64,000 nucleotides of DNA from Methanosarcina thermophila TM-1 (GTDB lineage: Archaea; Halobacteriota; Methanosarcinia; Methanosarcinales; Methanosarcinaceae): contig NZ_CP009501.1 of the NCBI RefSeq assembly GCF_000969885.1, forward strand, positions 2,370,908 to 2,434,907, given 5' to 3'. The notes beneath the pieces are model-generated. The model saw nothing but the letters and a program-made list of their open reading frames with translations, was not told the origin of the DNA and made no database searches. Of the stretch, positions 36,854 to 50,766 are shown one piece after another. How positions within the stretch are numbered: position 1 is the stretch's first letter; the number at the start of each line of letters is the position of its first letter. The position numbers and the translations under genes are program-made.

Positions 36854-37819
36854 TTAAACATTTTTTATAGTAGATTCTAAATCAATATTTTCCTCGAAGT
36901 ACCCGTATCCAACAGAAGTTTTAGCCCCAATACCATGTTCTTTGAGAGTTTTATTCATCCAATCGTAGGCAACTGATAACAAATTTGTGTTTTTTGATCC
37001 AACTGTAAATTCAAATTTCGTATCTTTCACAACTAAAAAGAATATGGGCTTTGGATCGTGATAATCAGCAGGAGGTACCGTGTTTGAACTATCAGAATAG
37101 TATTCAGAAAAATGAGGGTTCATTATTTCAGGTTCAATTTTAGGTTTGGATAAGGGTAAAGCATCAAAAAATATCACTTTTCCCTGCCTGCTTTCTTCAT
37201 ATAAACTCTCTTTTGGACACCCGAATATATCACAGAATTCTTGATCTTCTAATGCACGAGCTTCAGCCTTTTTTAAATCAAGGTTTCCATTTTTATCTTT
37301 ACCGAATTTCTCTAAAATTATATGACTTCGAATAGCGCCCTTAATTGAACTTCCAGGAATGTATGGGATGCCATATATGTGATGAAGCTTTATCGATGTT
37401 TCATAAACGGATTCATTCCCAAGACCAATTGCAAGTTTCCAATCAATTTTATAGATGCCTGATTTAACTTCTAAACCTAATTTTTTGAGGCTGTCTCTAT
37501 ATCTATCTGAAAGAGCCGAAAAGTTTATGCCAGAAAAATTGGGTTCGATGTTTATCAAGACATCTTTCTTATCCTTTTCAAAAAGCTTAAATTTCTCCTC
37601 TTTATAGTCAAAAGGAGAGGCTTTGTTTAATTTTAAAGCATAATTGTCAATTGAGCCAATATTTCCCTCAATTAACTTTCTAGTATCCGAGGGCATGATA
37701 TATTCAAAATACTCATTGTTGCGCCTGTTTTTCCTAGAATTATTTTCAGTACGTTTTTTTCCATTGGAATTAGGATGAGTGGACTTAGACTTGCTTTTCA
37801 TCTTCGGGTTCTCCTTCAA
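36854..37819 (-). CDS. cmr6: Type III-B RAMP protein Cmr6
   Basis: 321 residues. The N-terminal 35 are Lys/Asn/Ser-rich and probably disordered. The RAMP part contains KLHHIYGIPYIPGSSIKGAI (the G-rich SSIKGAIR loop) near residue 180, DIFGCPKESLYEE and IFFDALPL, and ends GAKTSVGYGYFEE, a typical RAMP glycine-rich end. Cmr6 caps the Cmr backbone at the 3' end of the crRNA. The first codons overlap the end of cmr5 by 35 bases. It is the last gene of the cas operon. Confidence 0.9.
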   Translation of the reverse strand: MKENPKMKSKSKSTHPNSNGKKRTENNSRKNRRNNEYFEYIMPSDTRKLIEGNIGSIDNYALKLNKASPFDYKEEKFKLFEKDKKDVLINIEPNFSGINFSALSDRYRDSLKKLGLEVKSGIYKIDWKLAIGLGNESVYETSIKLHHIYGIPYIPGSSIKGAIRSHIILEKFGKDKNGNLDLKKAEARALEDQEFCDIFGCPKESLYEESRQGKVIFFDALPLSKPKIEPEIMNPHFSEYYSDSSNTVPPADYHDPKPIFFLVVKDTKFEFTVGSKNTNLLSVAYDWMNKTLKEHGIGAKTSVGYGYFEENIDLESTIKNV

Positions 37820-38213
37820 TTAGTCCTTCTGAAAAACGAGAAAGCCATTTAAAGAGGGATAAAACCTCGTTTGTGACAGCGCGATAAGTTGGAGAATCAA
37901 GTGAAATTATCCATTCTACCAGATCTTTTTCTTGTTTTAAAAACCCACTTTCTTTTAACCACTGAGAAGTCTGGTCATATATTAAATAATAGGCATAGCC
38001 CGGCTTATCAGTTTCTTCAGCCCTTTTGACTTTCTTTGCTTTTACAAAAGCAAAAGTTTCACCCAGTCCATTAGTCTTAATCAATGTTGGTATCTTTCTT
38101 ACGTAGGCTTTATACTCTTTTTTTCTTTCTTCTTTGCTCCCTTCCAAAGCTTTCTCATATGCAAATTTCGCTCTTCCCTGCTCAAGCCCTTTTCTTGTAC
38201 TTATTTCACTCAT
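37785..38213 (-). CDS. cmr5: Type III-B small subunit Cmr5
   Basis: A 142-residue helical protein that stacks along the target RNA in the Cmr complex. The pattern EQGRAKFAYEKALEGSKEER then YRKIPTLIKTNGLGETFAFV, and a C-terminal LDSPTYRAVTNEVLSLFKWL RFSEGLIEG-like end, is typical of Cmr5 (the first helix, TNGLG loop, and YRxxTxExLxxLxWLxRFxEG). Sixteen bases after cmr4 and overlapping cmr6. Confidence 0.92.
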   Translation of the reverse strand: MSEISTRKGLEQGRAKFAYEKALEGSKEERKKEYKAYVRKIPTLIKTNGLGETFAFVKAKKVKRAEETDKPGYAYYLIYDQTSQWLKESGFLKQEKDLVEWIISLDSPTYRAVTNEVLSLFKWLSRFSEGLIEGEPEDEKQV

Positions 38214-38228
38214 CCAATGCTACCCCCA

Positions 38229-39173
38229 TTAGAGATCCATTATTCTGGTTCTGACAATTCCTTTGCCAATAGTAGAGTTTCCTCCCAGCTGGATTACAGG
38301 AGGTAGTCCTTTGATAAAGTACTCCATCACCAAATCTTCTTCATTTTTCCCGTTATTTTTTGCAAAAACTTTTTTGTTTTTGTCTTTACCTACAAAAATG
38401 GGACTTGTTAAAATCAGAGAGTAAAGAATAGTTTCACTTGGAAGGTATTCTTCAGTGAACAAAGCGCCTGTTTGGACAGTTCCAGTTTCGTTATTGATCT
38501 TGACTCTTGTAATCACTTCAGTTGAAAGATTTACAAAATCTTTAAAATCATCGTCACTCAAAATAACAAGATCTTTTTGCAGTTTTTGTGTCCAGTAATT
38601 GAAAATCTGACCCTTTGGAATCACATTCTTTGAAAGCCAGTGAGCAAACTTTGAGCATTTCTCATCCATTTTCACTTCAAAAGTGTATTCTTCTAAGATG
38701 ACCTTATTCCCCTCAAATAATAATTTACAGTCATCTGGAACTGTATTCTCTTCTGGCAATTTTGGAATTCCTTGGACATTAGCTAGACTGAGATCAGTAA
38801 TAAAACGCCCTAATACCTTTGGACATGTAATCCATGCAAAAACTCCTTTCATTGATTTCACTGGGAAGAGTAAAAGCCTAGCGTCTGTAAAACCAATTGC
38901 AGATCCATGATCATCTCCATTTTCCGGCCCAAAAACCAGTGAAATAACATCTTTATCTGATATTTTGACCTCCTGAGAATTTACTTTTATTTCAGCATGA
39001 TTAGTTTCAAATGCTTCTCTTATCCCTCCTTTTAAACCGGAGCCCTCAAATTTAGGAAACCCGGTATGTCTTTCTCTTTGAATGGGTAAGTCTACAACAC
39101 CAAGGTCAGTACCACTTCCAGCATGGAGAGGGGTTTCTACAGTCAAGAAAAAAGGCCTTACTCTTTTGAACAT
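38229..39173 (-). CDS. cmr4: Type III-B backbone RNase Cmr4
   Basis: 314 residues; the repeated backbone subunit that cleaves target RNA every six bases. The N-terminal segment ETPLHAGSGTDLGVVDLPIQ carries the conserved Asp (Asp28 here, in GVVDLP) that corresponds to the catalytic Asp of known Cmr4. It is followed by GFPKFEGSGLKGGIREAFE, the RAMP glycine loop, and the C-terminal PPVIQLGGNSTIGKGIVR loop. RNase activity should therefore be intact. It lies 28 bases after cmr3. Confidence 0.93.
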   Translation of the reverse strand: MFKRVRPFFLTVETPLHAGSGTDLGVVDLPIQRERHTGFPKFEGSGLKGGIREAFETNHAEIKVNSQEVKISDKDVISLVFGPENGDDHGSAIGFTDARLLLFPVKSMKGVFAWITCPKVLGRFITDLSLANVQGIPKLPEENTVPDDCKLLFEGNKVILEEYTFEVKMDEKCSKFAHWLSKNVIPKGQIFNYWTQKLQKDLVILSDDDFKDFVNLSTEVITRVKINNETGTVQTGALFTEEYLPSETILYSLILTSPIFVGKDKNKKVFAKNNGKNEEDLVMEYFIKGLPPVIQLGGNSTIGKGIVRTRIMDL

Positions 39174-39201
39174 TTTCCCACCAGTAATCCGAATTTATTT
39201 T

Positions 39202-40281
39202 TTATTCATTTACTTTTCCAACAAATGTTATACCAAATCCCTGTTTAGCATACTCGTCTGAAATTGATTGTTTATTGAACAAAGAATAAATTTCCTTGAT
39301 ATCTCCTTCGATAATTTTAAAGTAATAAACACTCCCAGCAGGAGTAGCCCTCCACATAGGTTTGGGTTTCTTCTGTTTAAGGTCAAAGCCTCCAATGTTC
39401 TGATATTTTCCGATTGAAGCCGTCAACAACTTAAATTTCAAATTTTTGTACTTACCTTCTAAACTATTCATATCTATCCAAGAGGGGAGCCATCCTTGGT
39501 GGAAGATTGCAGGAGTTGACAAATATAATTTGAATTTTTCAATATCTTTATTGAGATTCTTTTCAGAATAATTACAATTTATTAATTGCTCCGAAATTTT
39601 TTCGTAAGAAGCAGCTTTACCTTCTCCCCCTAATTTTAGCAAGCCCTTCTCAGGAATCTCCAGACCCTCAAATTCAACCAAAAAGCTGAGATTTTTTAGT
39701 CTTTTCATACCCACCCTGTATATTTTAGATTCATCGGCTGTGTGGGTCTCTCCGCTCAAGCCTATACCTATCTTCGGCTCAGTAATAACTCTCGAATTCA
39801 ATCGTAGAATGGAAAAATTTTTGCTATTACAAGATAGATACCCTTTCAATAATTCCCCACTTATCAGACCATTATCAATAGCTTGTACTCCTTGATCTCC
39901 TTTCAAAACATGAGAAGTAGGACAGGAACTTTTCAGTTTTAGCTCAACAAGAGAAAGAAGGTTTACTTCATTTTCCATCTCAGCTTCTACATCCTTTTTT
40001 TGGACCAAATCAAGAGGCAATGGTAAATACAAAGTATTCTTATTTTCTAAATTATCTAAGAAGTAAATCCCTCTTATTACCAGATTGTTAGTAGGGTCTT
40101 CTTCAGTGTTTGCTTTTTCAAGCAGATCAATGTGATTTGAAAAATAAACAGTCCTTATAGCACCGTATATTACTGAGGGAGAAGGCGGGAATATGCAATT
40201 TCCCCAACTGTCTTCTCCCATAGAGAAGGGTTTTCCATCTCTAAAGAAAATTGTATCCAAAGGATCAATTTTTATCAGCAT
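39202..40281 (-). CDS. cmr3: Type III-B RAMP protein Cmr3
   Basis: 359 residues. Cmr3 pairs with Cmr2 and holds the 5' tag of the crRNA. It shows IDPLDTIFFRDGKPFSMGED (the FFRDGKPF signature) at residues 5-24, FPPSPSVIYGAIRTVYFS, and ENIGIGLS-like EPKIGIGLSGETHTADESKI. The C-terminal QGFGITFVGKV is the last glycine-rich loop. Start ATG at 40281 touches the cmr2 stop. Confidence 0.92.
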   Translation of the reverse strand: MLIKIDPLDTIFFRDGKPFSMGEDSWGNCIFPPSPSVIYGAIRTVYFSNHIDLLEKANTEEDPTNNLVIRGIYFLDNLENKNTLYLPLPLDLVQKKDVEAEMENEVNLLSLVELKLKSSCPTSHVLKGDQGVQAIDNGLISGELLKGYLSCNSKNFSILRLNSRVITEPKIGIGLSGETHTADESKIYRVGMKRLKNLSFLVEFEGLEIPEKGLLKLGGEGKAASYEKISEQLINCNYSEKNLNKDIEKFKLYLSTPAIFHQGWLPSWIDMNSLEGKYKNLKFKLLTASIGKYQNIGGFDLKQKKPKPMWRATPAGSVYYFKIIEGDIKEIYSLFNKQSISDEYAKQGFGITFVGKVNE

Positions 40282-42053
40282 TAATTAGACCCCCGTTCAA
40301 TAAAAACCGCAGTATTTAAAAGAGACAGGAAGTTCTCCAAAGATTTGCTTTCTCTAGCTAATGCATATAACTTCTCTGTTATATCTTCAATTGTTTGCTC
40401 TTTTCTGGTGTAAAAATCTGTTTCTGTTTCTCCTGTTTTCTTAACCATCATACAGGACCTACTTATTAATCTTTTAATCTCAGTCTTGAGCAGTTTAAAC
40501 TCGGAATAGTTGCCATTTTCATCCATTAATAAATTAAATTCTTCATTTAGTTTTTTTACAAAACTATCTGAAAAGGATGGATTTCCTGAAGAATTTGGGG
40601 ATCTTAAAAGGTTAATTAATTCTTCTAAAACTTCGATAGTATCGAAAGTTCCATACTTCCATTTGAATACAGTTTTGTGTATTTCTCCAGATCTTTTGAG
40701 CACAGCAATTGCAAACGCGTCTTTCTCATTATTGCCATCAATCGACTTCGCCTCATGTTCCATTTTTCTTGCCCATGAAAGGACTTCCTGAAGGGGCGTT
40801 TTGTAATGAGCAATGCAAACACCACATGAAGCCGATGATTTTTTTCCTTGTTTTATGTAAGAAAATTCTTCAAATGCTGGGAAGTTCTTCCTTAATTCTT
40901 TCATTACAGGTAACAAATAATTAAGGTTGATAAAAGCAAGAACATCATCCCCACCTGAATAAACCAGTTTACCTTTTGGATTAACTTCTGAATCAACAAT
41001 GTTTTTTACTTCATTTGCATATCTACCAAGTTTTTCCGTCAGATAACTATGAAATCTCTCAAGTTCTGATTTCCCCTTGTCTTCCAAAAATTCTCCAGAG
41101 AGCCACTTCCCCATGTTATCTCCATCAAGACAAAGCAAAGCATAATAGTTTGAAAATTTTAATCCCATTTGTTCTGCAGTGTTTGTGATTTTAGCTAATT
41201 TTTCCAAGCTAACTTCTGGATCGGCTTTAATTCCATTTTTTTCAAAGTATTTTTTAGTCAAATTATCTTTAAAGTACAGCTGTTCATCAAAGTCTTTACC
41301 AAAAAAACTCTTATACTCTTTTAATAGCGAGGAATCAAGTTTTGAGAGTGTATCCATTAATGCAATTTCAGCCGTTGATGGATAATTTCTCTGATATTTT
41401 TTCTTAAAATGTTCGCCAGCAAAGCGTTTGGAAAGGCACACTGCACATAGACCCTCTCCATCACTAATAAATTTGTTAGAAACGTGGGTTACTTTTTTCG
41501 CATCTTGAACATATGCTCTCTTCTCGTCACCACCATAAAAGAGTACGTTTCTTTCACCACATAGTGAGCATTTTCTGCCAGATTCTTGAAATTGTTGAAA
41601 ACGGCGTATATTTTTTACTGCTCCTAAATAACTTTCAAGCTCACTAAATTTTGAAGCATAATCTCCTTCTTTAAAGTCCAATGCAATCCAGTGTAAGTCC
41701 AATAAATTGTCTATTTGCTGGCCAAAACCATCTGGAATATTTAAATTTAATTTTACAACTATATCTCCGCATATTTTCCTGTATTCATTTTGGACAAAGT
41801 TGCACAATTCAGAGCCAATTTTTTCAGGATCTTCACATTCAATTTTGGCAATAAAACGACTTGGTTTAGAATCTATCTCTTTATCTGGGAATATTATATC
41901 GCATGAGTCGACTAATCTACTCAATTCATCTATCGCTGCATCTGATAGATGTGATAATAGGAAGCTTCCTGCGTAAAGATCCTGTGTTTTTCTGGCTTGG
42001 GAAATATAAGATTGAACCGGTCCTATTGTAAAAAGAAAAAGAAATTGACTCAT
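40281..42053 (-). CDS. cmr2: Cas10/Cmr2, cyclic oligoadenylate synthase subunit
   Basis: 590 residues, the large subunit. It begins directly with FLFLFTIGPVQSYISQARKT, so no HD nuclease domain precedes the first palm; DNA cleavage by HD is therefore not expected. A zinc finger uses CSLC (162-165) and CAVC (203-206). The first catalytic strand is CLDGDNMGKW (309-317) and the palm motif GGDD is intact at residues 367-370 (VYSGGDDVLAF). This predicts cOA synthesis, in line with the CARF-HEPN gene nearby. ATG overlaps the cmr1 stop by four bases. Confidence 0.94.
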   Translation of the reverse strand: MSQFLFLFTIGPVQSYISQARKTQDLYAGSFLLSHLSDAAIDELSRLVDSCDIIFPDKEIDSKPSRFIAKIECEDPEKIGSELCNFVQNEYRKICGDIVVKLNLNIPDGFGQQIDNLLDLHWIALDFKEGDYASKFSELESYLGAVKNIRRFQQFQESGRKCSLCGERNVLFYGGDEKRAYVQDAKKVTHVSNKFISDGEGLCAVCLSKRFAGEHFKKKYQRNYPSTAEIALMDTLSKLDSSLLKEYKSFFGKDFDEQLYFKDNLTKKYFEKNGIKADPEVSLEKLAKITNTAEQMGLKFSNYYALLCLDGDNMGKWLSGEFLEDKGKSELERFHSYLTEKLGRYANEVKNIVDSEVNPKGKLVYSGGDDVLAFINLNYLLPVMKELRKNFPAFEEFSYIKQGKKSSASCGVCIAHYKTPLQEVLSWARKMEHEAKSIDGNNEKDAFAIAVLKRSGEIHKTVFKWKYGTFDTIEVLEELINLLRSPNSSGNPSFSDSFVKKLNEEFNLLMDENGNYSEFKLLKTEIKRLISRSCMMVKKTGETETDFYTRKEQTIEDITEKLYALARESKSLENFLSLLNTAVFIERGSN

Positions 42054-42895
42054 AATATCATCGCCTTGAACTTATCCTGAACCAGCTTATCCTGAACCGA
42101 GAAGTTCGCTTTTTTAGTAGAATCTTTATTAAAGACTGTGTTCAAAGTTGAGATAATTGGGAAATACCTTCCATTTGAGTTTTTCAATACTGATACATAT
42201 ATTGGTGAAGCAAGCCTGCCTTTAGATGAAGTAAATCCTAAAGAGCGATTACAACATTTGCTTGAAGCTGTTCCTATACTCTCAAGTACTTCCTCCCACT
42301 TCTCATATTCTCCTCCAAAAATTACTTCTTTTAAATAGGGGTATTGAGACTCTTGGAGGAAGCTTTCCTTTAAAACTATCTTCTCACCCTTCATGTCATA
42401 ATTGCTCGAGCCTACACGATTGATTAATTCTAAGATATCTTCAATTTCAAGATTGATATCCTCGGGCTCTAAACTCCCAAAACCTCGCCGAGACCTTTTA
42501 CCAAATCCGCCCAAAATAAGACATAGGTTTAAAATATCGCTATAATCTTGAATATTAGAATAGCTCGATAAAATTATTGAAAGATCTTGATTAGGAGATA
42601 TAACCTTAACACGTCCCATATTCTTATGAGGTAGCAAGAAGTAATTGCCTTGGTCTAATTCCCCACTTTGGATCCGAATCCTGATCTTGGATTTTCCTAC
42701 TTTTTCATTGCTCGCACCAAAAAGATCAGATTCCCTCTTTTTTAATTCTTCAAGGGACAAATGTCCGTTTACAGCTCTCCACCAGAATCTCATCATACCT
42801 TTAATTGAAGGAGGTCTTAACTCTGGAGTACGACCATCTGCCCCAGTCATGAGAAGAGGAGTAATAATTTTACATTTTATTTTTTCTATTTCCAA
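42050..42895 (-). CDS. cmr1: Type III-B RAMP protein Cmr1
   Basis: 281 residues; binds the 3' part of the crRNA-target duplex. It opens with IKCKIITPLLMTGADGRTPE followed by LRPPSIKGMMRFWWRAVNGH, the Cmr1 signature (RxxSIKGxxRFWWRA). LGGFGKRSRRGFGSLE near residue 130 is the second conserved loop. It is a little short for Cmr1, because the C-terminal part after residue 250 is brief. It is the first gene of the cmr1-6 block and follows cas6b by about 45 bases. Confidence 0.92.
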   Translation of the reverse strand: MEIEKIKCKIITPLLMTGADGRTPELRPPSIKGMMRFWWRAVNGHLSLEELKKRESDLFGASNEKVGKSKIRIRIQSGELDQGNYFLLPHKNMGRVKVISPNQDLSIILSSYSNIQDYSDILNLCLILGGFGKRSRRGFGSLEPEDINLEIEDILELINRVGSSNYDMKGEKIVLKESFLQESQYPYLKEVIFGGEYEKWEEVLESIGTASSKCCNRSLGFTSSKGRLASPIYVSVLKNSNGRYFPIISTLNTVFNKDSTKKANFSVQDKLVQDKFKAMIL

Positions 42896-42942
42896 CTCGT
42901 GCCCTCCAAAATAAAATTATTAAACTTATATCGATTGAGTTT

Positions 42943-43617
42943 TCACATCCTTATTTTCCTCACAGTCCCAAACCCTTTTGCAACTCCCTTTCCTATCCCA
43001 ATAAAATCCGGAATCAGAAAATTGGTCATAAAACCGCCTGTAAAAGAAGTAAAATCCAGATTTTTGTACTTTGAACGGTTGATCTCCACATTGACATCAC
43101 ATTTTATGGTATCAGGAACTGTATATCCAAAAGCCTTTGACATAGAGAGCAGGTTTCCCACAAGCGTCTTCCTGAGGATTTCCTTTTGTTCTTCAGGGTT
43201 TCTAGTCTCAAAGAACCTCTCTTTGTTTTCTTTGTTGAGAGCAAGCCAGGGAGTGAGAAATTCGTAAAAGTAAAGGCTTTTTGTCAGGCCGAAATCCTGT
43301 TTTTTAAGCCTCAGAGACCGCTCTGTGATTTCAAAATTTTGATGAGGAAGGGTGACGGTATCAAATTTGTCAAATAAACCTTTCAAAATTTCTGCTCCTT
43401 CATTTATGCCAACTACAAGTGGTATCCTATCAAGAACTTTATATTGTACCAGAGGGTAGCGGTAATAAAATCTGTCAGTATTATGGTTATGGAGCTGGTC
43501 GTATTCATTGAATTTTGACGCAAAGAAACCGCGGATCTGATTTGCATCACCCCTGAATTCCTCTGGTCCTTCAAAAGTCATCTCAAGAGTCTTGAGTTTA
43601 ATATTTTCCTGAGTCAT
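42943..43617 (-). CDS. cas6b: CRISPR pre-crRNA endonuclease Cas6b
   Basis: A 224-residue RAMP nuclease that cuts pre-crRNA inside the repeat. The N-terminal domain reads KLKTLEMTFEGPEEFRGDAN then FNEYDQLHNHNTDRFYYRYP; the C-terminal end PDFIGIGKGVAKGFGTVRKI is the Cas6 glycine-rich loop. This layout fits Cas6b (Cas6b_N plus Cas6b_C) known from methanogens. The paired His in LHNHN is a candidate active-site region, which I cannot confirm. ATG 43617 is preferred; an in-frame ATG at 43716 adds 33 poorly conserved residues. It heads the cas operon. Confidence 0.82.
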   Translation of the reverse strand: MTQENIKLKTLEMTFEGPEEFRGDANQIRGFFASKFNEYDQLHNHNTDRFYYRYPLVQYKVLDRIPLVVGINEGAEILKGLFDKFDTVTLPHQNFEITERSLRLKKQDFGLTKSLYFYEFLTPWLALNKENKERFFETRNPEEQKEILRKTLVGNLLSMSKAFGYTVPDTIKCDVNVEINRSKYKNLDFTSFTGGFMTNFLIPDFIGIGKGVAKGFGTVRKIRM

Positions 43618-43736
43618 GAAATATGGATAATTTTTTAATAATATCTTTTCTAATTTTGATATTATTACTCTTATCATATATACATTTTGATATTTATAGA
43701 AGAGAATCTGTAACAAAATAAAATCTTCGTATATAT

Positions 43737-44003
43737 TTAAATAACGTTTTGTATTTTCTCGCCAAGACTCCGCTCAATATTTTCAATTCCAGCCGCACAA
43801 TCCGTATGCTTGTAACAGTTTATCCAGAGAACAATAACTTTGTATATATTTTTGATCTTATTATTGAGCGACTTATCTTCTTCTTTATAGACAAAGTCTT
43901 CTTTTTCTGTGCGTTCAATCTCTTCTATGCTTTCACTTATCTTTTCAATCGACTCTTCAGTGGGTATAACTCTTATACTACTTCCTGTCCCATTTTCCTC
44001 CAA
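43737..44003 (-). CDS. Small hypothetical protein at the head of the cas operon
   Basis: 88 residues. The N-terminal half is a very acidic, probably coiled or disordered stretch (TEESIEKISESIEEIERTEK). The second half is KIKNIYKVIVLWINCYKHTD followed by CAAGIENIERSLGEKIQNVI. No family is recognised. It lies 120 bases upstream of cas6b on the same strand and may be an uncharacterised ancillary gene, possibly an anti-CRISPR or regulatory protein, but this is guesswork from position. Confidence 0.5.
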   Translation of the reverse strand: MEENGTGSSIRVIPTEESIEKISESIEEIERTEKEDFVYKEEDKSLNNKIKNIYKVIVLWINCYKHTDCAAGIENIERSLGEKIQNVI

Positions 44004-44178
44004 ACTTATTAATAAAACAGAGAAAGAACTATATACTTAATAACTAAATAATTTTAAACAGAATGTTGTCTTTTGCCAGAATATGTCTGCATAATTCAAA
44101 GACTCCTTTGAATAATTAATGATTTAATCGTATTTGCATGGTATAGTCTTACAAATAAACTTTTACGGAGAGAACTTG

Positions 44179-44670
44179 ATGTACAGGAGATATGTGATAG
44201 ATATTACTTCTGAACCTAAAAACGATGTTTATAGGCACCTGATTGATCTGGCTTTTGATTTATGTGATAGGTTTACTCTCGTTGTACATGAAGAAACTAA
44301 ATTAGACGATAAGGGTAAATCCATATTGGAAAAGCTAAATGATCATTTAATAGAAATGAAAAAGCAATCAGAATGGCCAGGTACAATACTATGTGACCAG
44401 TTTGCATATGTTTATTATTACCGTGCCAGTCCGGAAGCCAGAGAGATAATAAAAGAGGTTTCAAGTTCACTTTACAGTAGTTGGATATGGCCTCTCGAAG
44501 ACTTGAGTTTTTATAAGAATGGTAAACCATGGCTAGTAAACACAGCTCATGAAAATATTAGCTATATTCTTAGCGACGACGAGTCTGAGATCGACAGAAT
44601 CATGAACATAGAAGGCCTTAAGGCAAGAAAAGCAAGCGGGGCGTTTAAAACCCTGTCTAATTGGTATTGA
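44179..44670 (+). CDS. Hypothetical protein in the defence island
   Basis: 163 residues starting MYRRYVIDITSEPKNDVYRH, with GGAGAG nine bases before ATG 44179 (an in-frame ATG at 44134 is less likely). Features are a YVYYYRASPEAREIIKEVSS block and ENISYILSDDESEIDRIMNI near the end, a mixed alpha/beta soluble protein without membrane segments. No family is recognised. The small cytoplasmic form and position beside the cas operon and a toxin remnant would fit an immunity or defence accessory gene, but there is no direct evidence. Confidence 0.6.
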   Translation: MYRRYVIDITSEPKNDVYRHLIDLAFDLCDRFTLVVHEETKLDDKGKSILEKLNDHLIEMKKQSEWPGTILCDQFAYVYYYRASPEAREIIKEVSSSLYSSWIWPLEDLSFYKNGKPWLVNTAHENISYILSDDESEIDRIMNIEGLKARKASGAFKTLSNWY

Positions 44671-44697
44671 TGAAGATCGAGGTTTCAATTCTTGTTT

Positions 44698-44850
44698 TTA
44701 CAGCAGCTTATATCTTCTATATTTCTTATGTGCCTGTTCAGCGGCCAAAATATCGAAGATATGTACTTTCTTTTCTTCTTCATCAATTTTATAGAAAACC
44801 CGGTAGTTACAAACCCACAGTGGCAAGTAACTATTCGAGTTCTTTTGAAT
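44698..44850 (-). pseudogene. RelE/ParE-family toxin remnant
   Basis: The minus-strand frame gives PLWVCNYRVFYKIDEEEKKV then HIFDILAAEQAHKKYRRYKL, which is the C-terminal half of a RelE/ParE toxin (the vgxYRVxYxIDxxxxxVxIxxIxxR core). No start codon precedes it, since a stop closes the frame, and no antitoxin gene is next to it. A decayed toxin-antitoxin module. Confidence 0.7.
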
Positions 44851-44979
44851 TCTTTTTTATCTCCATAACTATCCAGAAATTTTGCTGATTATAAAATCCC
44901 GGAGTTGGATTGAGATCCCTGCAGTCCTTCGGCCATGTTTTTATTTACTCCAAATTATTAACTTCTATCAACAGCCATC

Positions 44980-46423
44980 TCAGGTTAATCTGTAAGCTCC
45001 CACCGGCGTCTGGGGACAGTCTGGCGGTGGGTGGTGTATTCTTCCGTAGGCGAATAATGCATCTCTGAAGCAGTAGCCTTTATCATGGATACAATTATTG
45101 AAATCCGTACAGAGTTGACACGGGGTGCCGACAAAATTCTCCCTCGGCGGGCAGATGAATCTGAGAAGCTCTGGGGAGTTCCAGACTTCCATTATCGACT
45201 GTCTTTTAAGGTCTCCAAAGAAGTACTTTGCATCAAGGGGCATCTGTTCGCACAATACAGCGCTTCCATCAGGTGCGATCCCAAGCGTAGTTCTGCCTGC
45301 AGAACAACCTGCTCTGGACTCCCATTTTTTTTCTCCTCTCTTTTTGGCTCTCAGGACTAGGGAGAGTATACTTTACTGCATCTCCTTCTATTATCAGGTC
45401 AGGCCAGCTCTCCTTTGCAGCTTTCAAGAGATCTGAAGCCTTCAATTTCATTTCATCAGTGAGGAACAGATGATCATCATGACGGTAGTGACTTCTTGCA
45501 TAGCTGGTGAACTGGAAGTTTCTAATACCAAGCTCAGAAAAGGTTTCGACATGATCATAGGCCTGATGGTAATTGATTGGGGTTAAAACGGCCTTGACTT
45601 TTGGCTCTATGCCTGCATCCATGAGATTCTGCAGCGTCTCTGTCGCTCTGCTGAGGTAGCCTTTACACCTCATTAAACGATCAGCTGTTTCCGGGTCCGG
45701 GCTATCAATGCTGACCTGAAATTCTCTGTTGACGCCATTTACGGGGTTATTCCATCCAGCTTCAGCCAGTCGATTAGCATCATCCAGACTGACATAGCAC
45801 TTTGTAGATGCCAGGAATATGAATCCCATCTCTGTAAGCTTTGCCAGAAACTCCGCTGAGTCCGGTCTACTCATCGGGTCTCCCCCTGTAAGCTGGAGCA
45901 TACGTATGCCGAGATCCCTGGCCTGCTCCATTATCTCCATCCATTGTCCCAGGGACATGTGATTAAGCTTACGCATGTTAGTAAGATCTGCATAGCAGTA
46001 GATACAGTTTGTCTGGCACCAGCCGCTGAAGTACAGCATCAAAGTCAAGGGCCTGGCTAGCCTGTGCTGGCATACGAACTCTTCCGGGGATACGAGGAAA
46101 TCCAGAGGATTATATTCTACAGCCGTGGTGTCTGGAACGTCAAGTACATCGATTTTCTCTAGCTTATCGTTGAGCACGTTAACTATGTTTTCTAATAGTG
46201 ATCTGGATGAGTCTGTGGATATATCGAACAGGAAGCCTATTGTCTTTGTCAGATCCCCTACACAGCGCCTGCCGTTTATCAGGCTTATAACCGTGGCTGT
46301 TACTGGATCTAATATCTGGTATTCTATGTTCTTGGTGGAGGTTAGGTAAAGTATGACCTTGTTACCGTCGTTTCTTAAAACCCATTCAGGTTTCAGCTTG
46401 AGGTAATTATCATCTTTCAGCAT
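44980..46423 (-). CDS. Radical SAM-SPASM peptide maturase with PqqD-like domain, frameshifted
   Basis: Likely RiPP-modifying enzyme. Residues 1-95 are a PqqD/RRE-like peptide-binding domain (VILYLTSTKNIEYQILDPVT). The radical SAM core has GWCQTNCIYCYADL (C136, C140, C143) and LTGGDPMSRP. The frame breaks at an A8 run (45325-45332): as written it gives KKMGVQSRL and stops at 45269. Reading seven As gives KKWESRAGCSAGRTTLGIAP, then ICPPRENFVGTPCQLCTDFN, a full SPASM domain ending at 44980. The joined protein has about 478 residues. This is a slippage site, a recent mutation or a sequencing error. It follows the Cys-rich peptide gene by 120 bases. Confidence 0.8.
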
Positions 46424-46544
46424 GTCAGGTCTCCAATCATTCCGTCAAATCATTCCGTCAAATGTGAGCCCTTGGTTAAGCTTTGGGTAAAAATAGTTGG
46501 ATAAGGGGTTTTGTACCCATCTATCCCTAATTGATCGCTTCCTT
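46424..46544. other. Gap between the peptide gene and its maturase gene
   Basis: Contains two copies of ATCATTCCGTCAA(A) about 16 bases apart (near 46436-46462), directly upstream of the maturase start. No terminator-like T run on the minus strand is clear, so a single transcript with the precursor is possible. Confidence 0.45.
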
Positions 46545-46802
46545 TTAAGAATAGGCTACGCAGTCAGTGCAGGCAGTTATGCATACTTCACAGAAGCCGC
46601 AGCCCACAGCAAGAGATGGCTGACTGCCAGGGGTTCGTCCGCTTTCTAATCTGATGCCTTTGCTACGAATCGCCTCTTTTATCAAGCCCATGGCACTCCT
46701 GTCAAACTCAGCTTTCAACTCTTGGTACTCTTTTATGCCTGACAGCTTGCTTTCAAATTCCATCTTCAGCTCTATAAGCCCTGGTATTTCACGTTCCTTC
46801 AC
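46545..46802 (-). CDS. Candidate RiPP precursor peptide with a Cys-rich C-terminus
   Basis: 85 residues. The start GTG 46802 follows GGAGGGG at good spacing. The first 55 residues are a charged helical leader (GLIELKMEFESKLSGIKEYQ). A small linker GRTPGSQPSLAVG leads to a core GCGFCEVCITACTDCVAYS with five cysteines spaced C-x2-C-x2-C-x3-C-x2-C. This leader-linker-core plan, plus a PqqD-radical SAM-SPASM gene next door, suggests a thioether-crosslinked peptide (sactipeptide or ranthipeptide type). A small metal- or Fe-S-binding protein is the alternative. No known family is recognised. Confidence 0.65.
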   Translation of the reverse strand: MKEREIPGLIELKMEFESKLSGIKEYQELKAEFDRSAMGLIKEAIRSKGIRLESGRTPGSQPSLAVGCGFCEVCITACTDCVAYS

Positions 46803-47223
46803 TCTAATACCCCTCCAATTATTTGTATAGTCTGTCCTTTTTATAAACAGAGTTTATGCAATTGAAGCTCAAAAACAAGCACATAGACATTAAGGTTTTA
46901 ATGTAAATTTAATAATTTAAAGGTCTAAAACCATTATTTTAAATCCAATCGCATAAGCTCTGCTAAACCCCTATACGTGTAATTATATAAGAAAAGTAAA
47001 GAATAAATCTTCAGGATTATAAGTATCTTATATTAGCCTACATGCTTGTGTATATTATATCTGACAATATACTTAGACTATATCAGGTACATTACAGGAT
47101 CTTATTTTCAGAAGGTTATCCTGAATTCTATTTCATTCGACAATTAATATATAGTATCTGACAGATCTGATAGGTTTGTTCACGAATATGATATCTCCAT
47201 GCAAAAACATTACGAAGTAAAAT
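46803..47223. other. AT-rich region between the peptide gene and the CRISPR array (trailer side)
   Basis: No gene. It holds the probable promoter of the Cys-rich peptide gene on the minus strand and the distal end of the CRISPR array. TATTATATCTGACAATATAC and similar AT words occur at 47050-47080, and TATCTGACAGATCTGATAG at 47153-47172 is a short imperfect palindrome. Confidence 0.45.
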
Positions 47224-49474
47224 GCTTCAATCCTTGTTTTAATGGATCTTGCATTCGAATATCAAACTGCCAGCACTCGTCTATTTATTTTTCATGCGGT
47301 TTCAATCCTTGTTTTAATGGATCTTGCATTCGAATATATTCCCAGGCGAGACCACCAAAGACGATTACAAGAAGTTTCAATCCTTGTTTTAATGGATCTT
47401 GCATTCGAATCAGAAGGTGCTCTCGTTACAGCAATGACGTTTATTTCGTTTCAATCCTTGTTTTAATGGATCTTGCATTCGAATAAACTGGCCTTCTTAC
47501 GGAGATTGGCGGCGGACATGGTTTCAATCCTTGTTTTAATGGATCTTGCATTCGAATAGAAATGTAAACCTGTACAACTCAATGTTTGACTATGGTTTCA
47601 ATCCTTGTTTTAATGGATCTTGCATTCGAATAGCCAAAAAAGATGAGTTTTAAAATCGGTCAAACAGGTTTCAATCCTTGTTTTAATGGATCTTGCATTC
47701 GAATCGTATAATGATGCTACTGTTCTCGCTTCACAAATGAGTTTCAATCCTTGTTTTAATGGATCTTGCATTCGAATACAGACTTCCACACCGAGATGGT
47801 TATTTATTCGGTGTTTCAATCCTTGTTTTAATGGATCTTGCATTCGAATCCCTTGAGATCGTTATCAGTCTAATTTCTTAATATGTTTCAATCCTTGTTT
47901 TAATGGATCTTGCATTCGAATCTGAATGGGCGTGTGTACTCGGCTGGGGTCCTGAGGATGTTTCAATCCTTGTTTTAATGGATCTTGCATTCGAATGTAT
48001 CGGTAGAATTCAGGAACGGACACTTTCACACAGGTTTCAATCCTTGTTTTAATGGATCTTGCATTCGAATCCTTAAACGGGTCTATATCTGCAACGACAA
48101 CGAAGCAAAGTTTCAATCCTTGTTTTAATGGATCTTGCATTCGAATAAATCCTTTTCGCTATCGGTAGAAGTGTAACCATGTGGTTTCAATCCTTGTTTT
48201 AATGGATCTTGCATTCGAATCAGAAGATTTTAAGACACTTACCGCAGCCGATCTTAACGTTTCAATCCTTGTTTTAATGGATCTTGCATTCGAATTCAGA
48301 GAACCTAACCGTTAATTAGGCATCCCTAATATTGTTTCAATCCTTGTTTTAATGGATCTTGCATTCGAATACCATAATATAACATCTCTCAATTTACTTG
48401 CTGAATAGTTTCAATCCTTGTTTTAATGGATCTTGCATTCGAATTTATTCTTCTTTGTAGTATCATCTAGAAGCCGTTTAGTTTCAATCCTTGTTTTAAT
48501 GGATCTTGCATTCGAATTTCTCAAACTTTTGTGCGACTTCTTCAGGGAGCTCGTTTCAATCCTTGTTTTAATGGATCTTGCATTCGAATTGATATGAAGA
48601 ATTCGGCGGATGAGACTTACCAGGCAGGTTTCAATCCTTGTTTTAATGGATCTTGCATTCGAATCACCAGACAGCTTGGACGGATTAATCTTAAAATTAG
48701 GAGTTTCAATCCTTGTTTTAATGGATCTTGCATTCGAATGGCAGGATAACGGTATCATTTTCGGCGACTTGAGTAGTTTCAATCCTTGTTTTAATGGATC
48801 TTGCATTCGAATCCTGCCCCGCTTCGCAGCTTCTTCCAGGCAGAGATGATAGTTTCAATCCTTGTTTTAATGGATCTTGCATTCGAATAAAACTGATAAT
48901 TGTAGATACATTAAGTTGAAAGGTAGTTTCAATCCTTGTTTTAATGGATCTTGCATTCGAATCAGTGAGAGGCATTTATTCAGCCTCCATAACAGCCTGT
49001 TTCAATCCTTGTTTTAATGGATCTTGCATTCGAATCCTGTACTGCTGCCTGATGTGCATCATGGATGATCTGGTTTCAATCCTTGTTTTAATGGATCTTG
49101 CATTCGAATATCAACGAAAGAGTACGAATATTCAGGAACTTTCAGTTTCAATCCTTGTTTTAATGGATCTTGCATTCGAATCTTGCAAAACAAACGTGAT
49201 GCTCTGGAATTAATGACGTTTCAATCCTTGTTTTAATGGATCTTGCATTCGAATGTCAATCCAAACCGTGAAAAAAGAGCTTCGAGAACTGTTTCAATCC
49301 TTGTTTTAATGGATCTTGCATTCGAATCTTTTTTTCACGGTTCACCTCCTGTGTAAAGTGTTAGTTTCAATCCTTGTTTTAATGGATCTTGCATTCGAAT
49401 ACTAAAACTGATTATATCACGGTAGCTGCAAAATCGGGTTTCAATCCTTGTTTTAATGGATCTTGCATTCGAAT
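47224..49474 (-). CRISPR. CRISPR array, 31 repeats of 37 bp and 30 spacers
   Basis: Repeats begin GTTTCAATCC and end TTGCATTCGAAT on the plus strand; spacers are 35-38 bp. Repeat starts run from 47224 to 49438 at about 74-bp steps. The first repeat (47224) has C instead of T at position 2; the others I read appear identical. Read on the minus strand the repeat ends ATTGAAAC, the usual 8-base 5' handle, so transcription runs leftward from a leader right of 49474, and the degenerate repeat at 47224 is the old end. Cas6b (42943-43617) would process it and Cmr would use the crRNAs. Apparent short proteins in both strands here are only repeat translations. Confidence 0.97.
48296..48333 (-). other. 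CRISPR spacer resembling a DtxR-like operator region
   Basis: The 38-bp spacer contains TTAGGCATCCCTAATATT, which differs at one of 18 positions from TTAGGCATACCTAATATT at operator 2 upstream of feoB (28184-28201), and it also contains GAACCTAA, which occurs in operator 1. It is not identical, so it probably derives from a similar iron-regulated promoter elsewhere, for example on a plasmid, virus or another feo gene. Confidence 0.6.
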
Positions 49475-49740
49475 AGGGGAAATTTTTCCTCTATTTGGCT
49501 AGAAAAAGCCTGAGATTACTACTATATTAAAACTAAATTTCTTGTTGGGATATTATCAAACCCTTTATAAATACAAGAAAAACAGCGTTTTTTAGAGGTT
49601 TGGAAATATCTCAGTATACGCCTTTCTTTTTATTAAACTTTTGTATCTAAAGTCATCTTAGATAAATTCAAAGAACAGTTTATATAGTAATTTTTAACAT
49701 TTCAAAGACGATGATATTTAAACAACTCCGTTACTAAACT
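49475..49740 (-). promoter_or_regulatory. CRISPR leader and promoter
   Basis: AT-rich region next to the conserved end of the array. On the minus strand TTTATAAAG (49564-49572) is a TATA-like box about 90 bases before the first-transcribed repeat, and ACTATATAAAC further out (near 49680) is a second candidate. Position and composition, together with the orientation shown by the ATTGAAAC handle, support a leader role. New spacers would be inserted at this end, but no cas1-cas2 is in the window. Confidence 0.65.
49564..49572 (-). promoter_or_regulatory. Putative TATA box of the CRISPR transcript
   Basis: TTTATAAAG on the minus strand, in the leader. The spacing to the first repeat (about 90 bases) leaves room for a normal leader RNA. 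Confidence 0.5.
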
Positions 49741-49925: not shown

Positions 49926-50579
49926 CTAAAACAATAACAATTTACTGAACAATGCCTTTTTACTGCTTGATTTTCCAGTCGGATTAATTAGATTAACCAT
50001 GCTCAAAAAGTTCGTACCAGCCTGTTTCAGTTTCCCTCTTACAGAATATCCATGCTTTTTATATAATTTTAGAGCCCCTTTGTTTTCGGGTTTAACAATC
50101 AATGAGATTTTAGAAATGCCAAGTTTATGAGATTTGAGAGCAGCTGCTTTTAGCAATTTACTTCCAATCCCACATGCTCGGTACTGTGGATAAACGGCAA
50201 GTGAATCTATATAATATTCGCCAGGTTCCGCCTCTTTTGTTTTTAACATGGGGACTACTTTTCTTTGATAATCCTTAGCATCGGATTTATATAGCTTAGG
50301 AAGTTTTTCCACCAAAAGCTTACTCAAACGTGGAAAATTGTCTGAAGGAAATGATAAAATCAAGCCTGCTGTGCGGTTACGTACCTCAGCGACATAGATA
50401 TTTTGATAACTTAAAATATTATCTGGCTGCTAATAGAATTTCTTTATAACCTCTTGTGCATCCTTCTGATTATTAGAACCTGCGAGCACATAAGCACATT
50501 CTCCCCAGGCCATGCAAATTAATTCTGCCGCTTCTTCTGCATCTTCAATTTTTGCCTGTCGAATATTCAAACATATCAT
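49926..50579 (-). CDS. GNAT N-acetyltransferase with an in-frame UAG
   Basis: The minus-strand frame from ATG 50579 to stop 49926 has 218 codons with a single TAG at 50430-50432 (codon 50). Before it: MICLNIRQAKIEDAEEAAEL...EVIKKFY; after it: QPDNILSYQNIYVAEVRNRT. The acetyl-CoA site YRACGIGSKLLKAA (RxxGIG motif) and ALKLYKKHGYSVRGKLKQ show a full GNAT domain. Both parts are in the same frame and join naturally, so the UAG may be read as pyrrolysine by the tRNA-Pyl encoded in this window, or may be a fresh nonsense mutation. The substrate is unknown. An 18-bp tandem repeat lies just upstream. Confidence 0.72.
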
Positions 50580-50650
50580 GCCTCATAAATAAAAACACTA
50601 TAGTTTTTATTTTATTTTCATTATCTTTTTCCGATATTTTATTTTTTACA

Positions 50651-50740
50651 TTTCTCAAATTATTTATATTTCTCAAACTATTTATATTTCTCAAACTATT
50701 TATATTTCTCAAACTATTTATATTTCTCAAATTGTCTGCA
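50651..50740. repeat. 18-bp tandem repeat upstream of the acetyltransferase
   Basis: Five copies of TTTCTCAAACTATTTATA with an 18-bp period (starts near 50651, 50669, 50687, 50705, 50723). It lies 72-160 bases upstream of the acetyltransferase start, where copy number could affect promoter strength. On the minus strand it can be read as the repeat SLRNIN. Confidence 0.85.
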
Positions 50741-50766
50741 TTTATTAATCTGTTTTTATAACTCAA

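Follow-up and report, generated by a model that had tools for sequence, protein, structure and literature searches.

A candidate RiPP precursor-maturase pair inserted beside a type III-B CRISPR locus in Methanosarcina thermophila

Why should a methane-producing archaeon carry a gene for a short, cysteine-rich peptide, and behind it a gene for a radical SAM enzyme, next to a type III-B (Cmr) CRISPR locus with Cas6, Cmr1, Cas10 and Cmr3? The two genes lie in a stretch of 64,000 nt from Methanosarcina thermophila TM-1, which was analysed as a whole and is called the window here; an original prediction had read them as a RiPP precursor and its maturase. We think it probable that this reading is right: that the pair is a minimal RiPP biosynthesis system, made up of an 85-aa precursor and an RRE/radical SAM-SPASM maturase (intact in a sister species), most likely thioether-forming and horizontally acquired, and that its position beside CRISPR is incidental.

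The peptide gene (46545..46802, minus strand) has a GTG start, with a strong Shine-Dalgarno sequence, GGAGGGG (46810..46816, minus strand), 7 nt 5′ of it. The 85-aa product has a helical, charged leader as its N-terminal part and ends in ...LAVGCGFCEVCITACTDCVAYS, in which five cysteines (residues 68, 71, 74, 78 and 81) have the spacing C-x2-C-x2-C-x3-C-x2-C; both the ORF and the spacing are present as first described. The maturase gene follows downstream on this strand after a gap of 121 nt and, in the window, is split. Its first frame (45269..46423, minus strand), recognised from sequence, Pfam and a structure model, encodes the RRE domain and the radical SAM barrel in 384 aa, of which the residues past the frameshift are out of frame, and closes at 45269; the SPASM part, recognised by Pfam, lies in another frame (44980..45339, minus strand; the mechanical ORF starts at TTG 45255), which runs down to 44980. 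In the sister genome (G021) the maturase is a single uninterrupted ORF of 480 aa, continuous through SPASM, and the alignment places the break at a run of eight A (45325..45332, minus strand), where the window has AAAAAAAA and G021 has AAAAAAC. Thus the region 44980-46423, originally taken as one enzyme gene, does hold the PqqD-like RRE, the CxxxCxxC motif and SPASM, but the gene is frameshifted, which had been overlooked.

The frameshift may be either a sequencing error or a real mutation, and the maturase copy in this genome may be inactive. This bears on a reading to which we give somewhat less than an even chance: that what this genome carries is a remnant of the pair, decaying or phase-variable, in which slippage at the A8 run cuts the maturase before SPASM, so that no product forms unless polymerase slippage restores the frame. 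The A8 run opposite A6C, together with the intact ORF in G021, speaks for such a remnant; however, a one-base homopolymer indel is also the commonest sequencing error, and apart from this break the fragments encoding RRE, barrel and SPASM are intact. As this reading concerns the present state of the pair, it is compatible with the explanation as RiPP precursor and maturase.

What kind of enzyme the gene encodes was judged from its domains and from predicted structure. In the window fragments Pfam recognises Radical_SAM (E=2.6e-18) and, in the second fragment, SPASM (E=1.1e-5). The CxxxCxxC cluster motif (residues 136-143; 45995..46018, minus strand) is invariant in 44 relatives, and the intact G021 protein carries both PF04055 and PF13186 (SPASM), with invariant cysteine columns; it is thus on the G021 protein that the CxxxCxxC motif and the SPASM cysteines expected of such a maturase are found together, SPASM being out of frame in the window. 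The leader-binding domain (residues 7-91; 46151..46405, minus strand) was recognised from its predicted fold: when the N-terminal 96 residues were modelled alone (AlphaFold, pLDDT 93.8), the top six Foldseek matches included leader-bound lasso-peptide RREs (TbiB1, lasso B1) and PqqD (5sxy). A Pfam sequence search gave no PqqD match in any of 44 family members, so that the RRE assignment rests on predicted structure.

The model of the 384-aa fragment (pLDDT 88.4) is matched best by SkfB, the maturase of the sactipeptide SKF (PDB 6efn; Z 25.3 over 322 residues), with SuiB of streptide (PDB 5v1q) at Z 22.1; in a comparison of the family profile with PDB sequences, SkfB, PqqE and SuiB rank first. 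SkfB has the same RRE and radical SAM barrel, but is 17% identical, and in place of the SPASM found in the family of the window enzyme it has a twitch domain that holds a [2Fe-2S] cluster (PMC8172795); the SKF system also includes dedicated genes for a protease and for export. SuiB and CteB (of the SCIFF thioether peptide, PDB 5wgg) share the whole layout of RRE, barrel and SPASM, but at 14-17% identity and with other precursors. The window fragments stay below every curated NCBIfam cut-off (the best score is 61.8 bits where 325 are required), including those of equivalogs such as TIGR03962 MftC, TIGR02109 PqqE, TIGR04403 SkfB and TIGR04303 GeoRSP, and the same is true of their relatives. We count against the RiPP explanation that the enzyme resembles not only sactipeptide maturases but also those of cofactor peptides (MftC, PqqE), that the RRE is seen by predicted structure only, that the gene is frameshifted here and that neither a protease nor an exporter gene is adjacent.

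A scan of GTDB contigs found 76 loci of the maturase family, in Bacteroidota, Chlorobi, Planctomycetota, Bacillota, Methanosarcinales and others. The upstream sequence was long enough at 39 loci, and at 30 of these a short ORF carrying CxxC or CxxxC lies on the maturase strand no more than 800 nt upstream of the gene, against 108 of 710 control windows (15%). The contrast is descriptive, because the upstream regions had already been looked at once when the test was designed, and because loci from close relatives do not count independently. With this linkage, and with peptide homologues beside the maturase (see below), the arrangement of a RiPP pair, a short precursor gene adjoining its modifying enzyme, is kept in relatives. 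The cores differ by group: Chlorobi and Brocadia have CxxxC repeats, Bacteroidales have GG-type leaders, and other Methanosarcinales have GCxxCxNGxxW. The leader of the window peptide is not detectably similar to those of the other Methanosarcinales members, and when a profile was built from precursors of Methanosarcinales, Brocadia and Firmicutes, the peptide did not stand out among the 369 ORFs of the window; we therefore do not claim a leader shared with these precursors. TIGR04117 (Cys-Xaa-Xaa-Xaa repeat radical SAM target) and TIGR04149 (rSAM-modified RiPP) are weakly like the precursors at more distant family loci (E 2.5e-4 and 1.2e-3, below the curated cut-offs), but the window peptide itself matches neither.

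Some of these loci deserve a description of their own. In Candidatus Brocadia four paralogous Cys-repeat precursors stand in a row ahead of the maturase (L054:4654-5907). The Chlorobi precursors (L052, L053) are 189 aa long, with many cysteines arranged as CxxxC repeats, and their maturase gene has a convergent ABC transporter gene beside it; the remark that exporter and protease genes are not adjacent, made at the outset, holds for the window locus, whereas these Chlorobi relatives have a neighbouring transporter gene. In Methanoperedens, Methanosarcina and Peptococcaceae (L037-L041, L055-L063) a related maturase accompanies a precursor of about 60 aa ending in GCxxCxNGxxW. What comes next differs between two groups of these clusters: one has a peptide prenyltransferase resembling LynF/TruF/PatF (TIGR04445, E 2.8e-23, below cut-off) together with a flavin amine oxidase, the other a protein of about 280-320 aa, of unknown kind, and a squalene-hopene-cyclase-like protein. 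These clusters are possible sources of a prenylated archaeal RiPP.

The closest parallel to the window pair comes from rhizobia. A tblastn search of plasmids with the maturase found three, Rhizobium sp. CB3171 pCB3171_2, Mesorhizobium sp. L-2-11 MesoLjLa4 and Aminobacter sp. SS-2016, in which an enzyme is 33% identical over its full length and the annotation of the pair goes no further than ‘hypothetical protein’ and ‘radical SAM protein’. On the two plasmids inspected, a ‘hypothetical’ peptide of 77-78 aa lies directly upstream of the maturase; on the third, tblastn places the peptide about 120 bases from it. The rhizobial and window peptides align as LI-E...I..KG....., followed by GCxxCxVC...CxxC. 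None of 2000 shuffles of the Rhizobium peptide, and none of 2000 of the Mesorhizobium peptide, reached the observed score against the window peptide; with cysteine positions kept, 2/2000 and 11/2000 did so, respectively, and with the cysteines masked support was weak (38/2000 and 369/2000), so that the case for homology depends largely on the Cys-rich end and the common gene order. A tree places the window-type maturase together with its rhizobial counterparts (SH-aLRT 94, long branches) and apart from the enzymes of other Methanosarcina. Peptide homology and tree grouping together argue that peptide and enzyme share one history. The rhizobial five-cysteine spacing is nearly that of the window, but their core is CxxCxxCxCxxC and ends in Trp; the two inspected clusters also have a second radical SAM-SPASM gene directly downstream (L135:7511-8872 and L136:7574-8875), nearest to TIGR04463 (below cut-off).

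Thus the original view of the pair as RiPP precursor and maturase is supported by the predicted RRE fold, by the family-wide link to short Cys peptides and by peptide homologues seen so far only beside this maturase. By analogy with RRE-containing sactipeptide maturases (PMC8172795), the maturase would bind the charged N-terminal leader through its RRE domain, and hydrogen abstraction on residues of the five-cysteine core would be started by the radical SAM cluster. The enzyme would then, most likely, join cysteine sulphurs to carbons, giving the thioethers of a sactipeptide or ranthipeptide. We favour such cross-linking as the likely outcome because the cysteine pattern is conserved and SkfB is the best structural match, although SuiB, which forms a C-C bond, is nearly as close.

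It is accordingly worth weighing that the same RiPP architecture works without thioethers, through C-C or C-O cross-links or towards an excised peptide-derived redox cofactor, the cysteines ending as disulphides or metal ligands. SuiB is one of the two closest structures, the best profile matches of the relatives include MftC and PqqE, and related Methanosarcinales clusters have two-cysteine precursors with a conserved C-terminal Trp, one group of them with the TruF-like prenyltransferase gene. However, cysteine spacing motifs are the main feature common to the precursors across the family, and it is a thioether former, SkfB, that fits best in structure; we therefore regard a chemistry without thioethers as unlikely, if well worth keeping in mind.

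Returning to the preferred, thioether-forming pair, how new would it be? The precursor family is new and the maturase family unnamed, and both are of a RiPP kind already known. A more far-reaching idea, that the archaeal and rhizobial five-cysteine peptides are founders of an undescribed RiPP class in two domains of life, with a novel cross-link pattern and possibly intracellular, is speculative and to us rather doubtful; action inside the cell is suggested because the archaeal pair is without export and protease genes. A mining study of 2025 found radical-SAM RiPP clusters to be among the abundant archaeal classes, and noted that earlier work had validated just two archaeal RiPPs, both lanthipeptides from Haloarchaea, to which it adds further lanthipeptides (PMC12144867). 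The pair offers a defined target of two genes, with an intact version in the sister species and homologues in rhizobia, and its RRE and core are open to co-expression in E. coli.

Could the peptide instead be an unmodified small Fe-S or zinc protein which stands by chance beside an enzyme gene? Its CxxC motifs would suit such a protein, but we consider this very improbable: the peptide has no above-chance match to any Pfam, NCBIfam or PDB family, among them the Fe-S and zinc families named at the outset as a possible refutation, and the same pairing recurs on rhizobial plasmids. PDB sequence matches to HIV Tat (E 0.13 and worse) are due to chance. A second possible refutation, peptide homologues away from any radical SAM gene, was also pursued, and the homologues found so far stand only beside a maturase of this family. 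Scanning GTDB contigs for the peptide with back-translated patterns gave no relative, which is at least partly a limit of sensitivity, because tblastn of plasmids with the maturase did find the rhizobial peptides. Among 393 genomes sampled from the phylum no other had the peptide, bar one weak match (L176, E 0.002) taken as chance, its 3.2-kb locus having no radical SAM-like ORF and a histone-like ORF nearby. Searches of viral contigs for maturase and for peptide found neither.

There remains the CRISPR setting. The pair lies between cas6 of the III-B locus (42943..43716, minus strand) and a CRISPR array (approximately 47226..49651, no strand assigned). In seven relatives compared, whose cas6 is 83-92% identical, homology to the window runs from cas6 to about 43800-44000, where it stops; the upstream region of cas6 is the same in five of these, and there the array begins no more than a few hundred bases further on, with nothing in the gap, and in the other two the first repeat is about 1 kb further or was not found. 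In the window and G021 the distance between cas6 and array is longer by about 3.2 kb, the pair is confined to these two species, and its GC content (46.8% in the maturase, 47.7% in the peptide) compares with 34-36% in the cas genes. The pair is thus a GC-rich, lineage-specific insertion, and we infer that it was acquired horizontally; nothing convincing in the way of inverted or direct repeats was seen at the insertion ends. The same insertion holds a 178-aa ORF of unknown function on the opposite strand (44134..44670, plus strand), which has no family match, has homologues in 9 of 31 Methanosarcina genomes (that of the window included) and is absent beside cas6 in the relatives compared; it is probably not part of the RiPP pair. 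Against G021, positions 37786-47226 form a mosaic in which long tracts of 100% identity alternate with diverged ones, flanking genes being 78-89% identical, which points to a recent exchange of the CRISPR-Cas segment between the two species. Since the peptide lies in such an exchanged tract, the identity of its two archaeal copies is no sign of selection, and pS/pN between the two genomes has little weight in a region of this make-up.

This insertion history, the relatives that do without the pair and the other family loci, whose inspected neighbourhoods showed no cas-like families, lead us to regard the CRISPR setting as incidental. Recurrent linkage to defence genes was not found in family neighbourhoods, in pair-less relatives or with PADLOC, which gave for the pair only a generic radical-SAM resemblance to viperins. 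The conflict role once drawn from the defence island, with the pair as a module coupled to type III CRISPR, for example as a peptide effector inside infected cells, can point to its place between cas6 and array, on the cas6 strand, in two species, but deserves scarcely any credence beside five relatives with the same cas6 upstream region and no pair, inspected family loci without cas genes and the lack of a specific PADLOC match. The case shows that CRISPR adjacency can mislead. Further along, past the array, a small ORF with repeated LRNINS units lies at 50545-50766 of the window.
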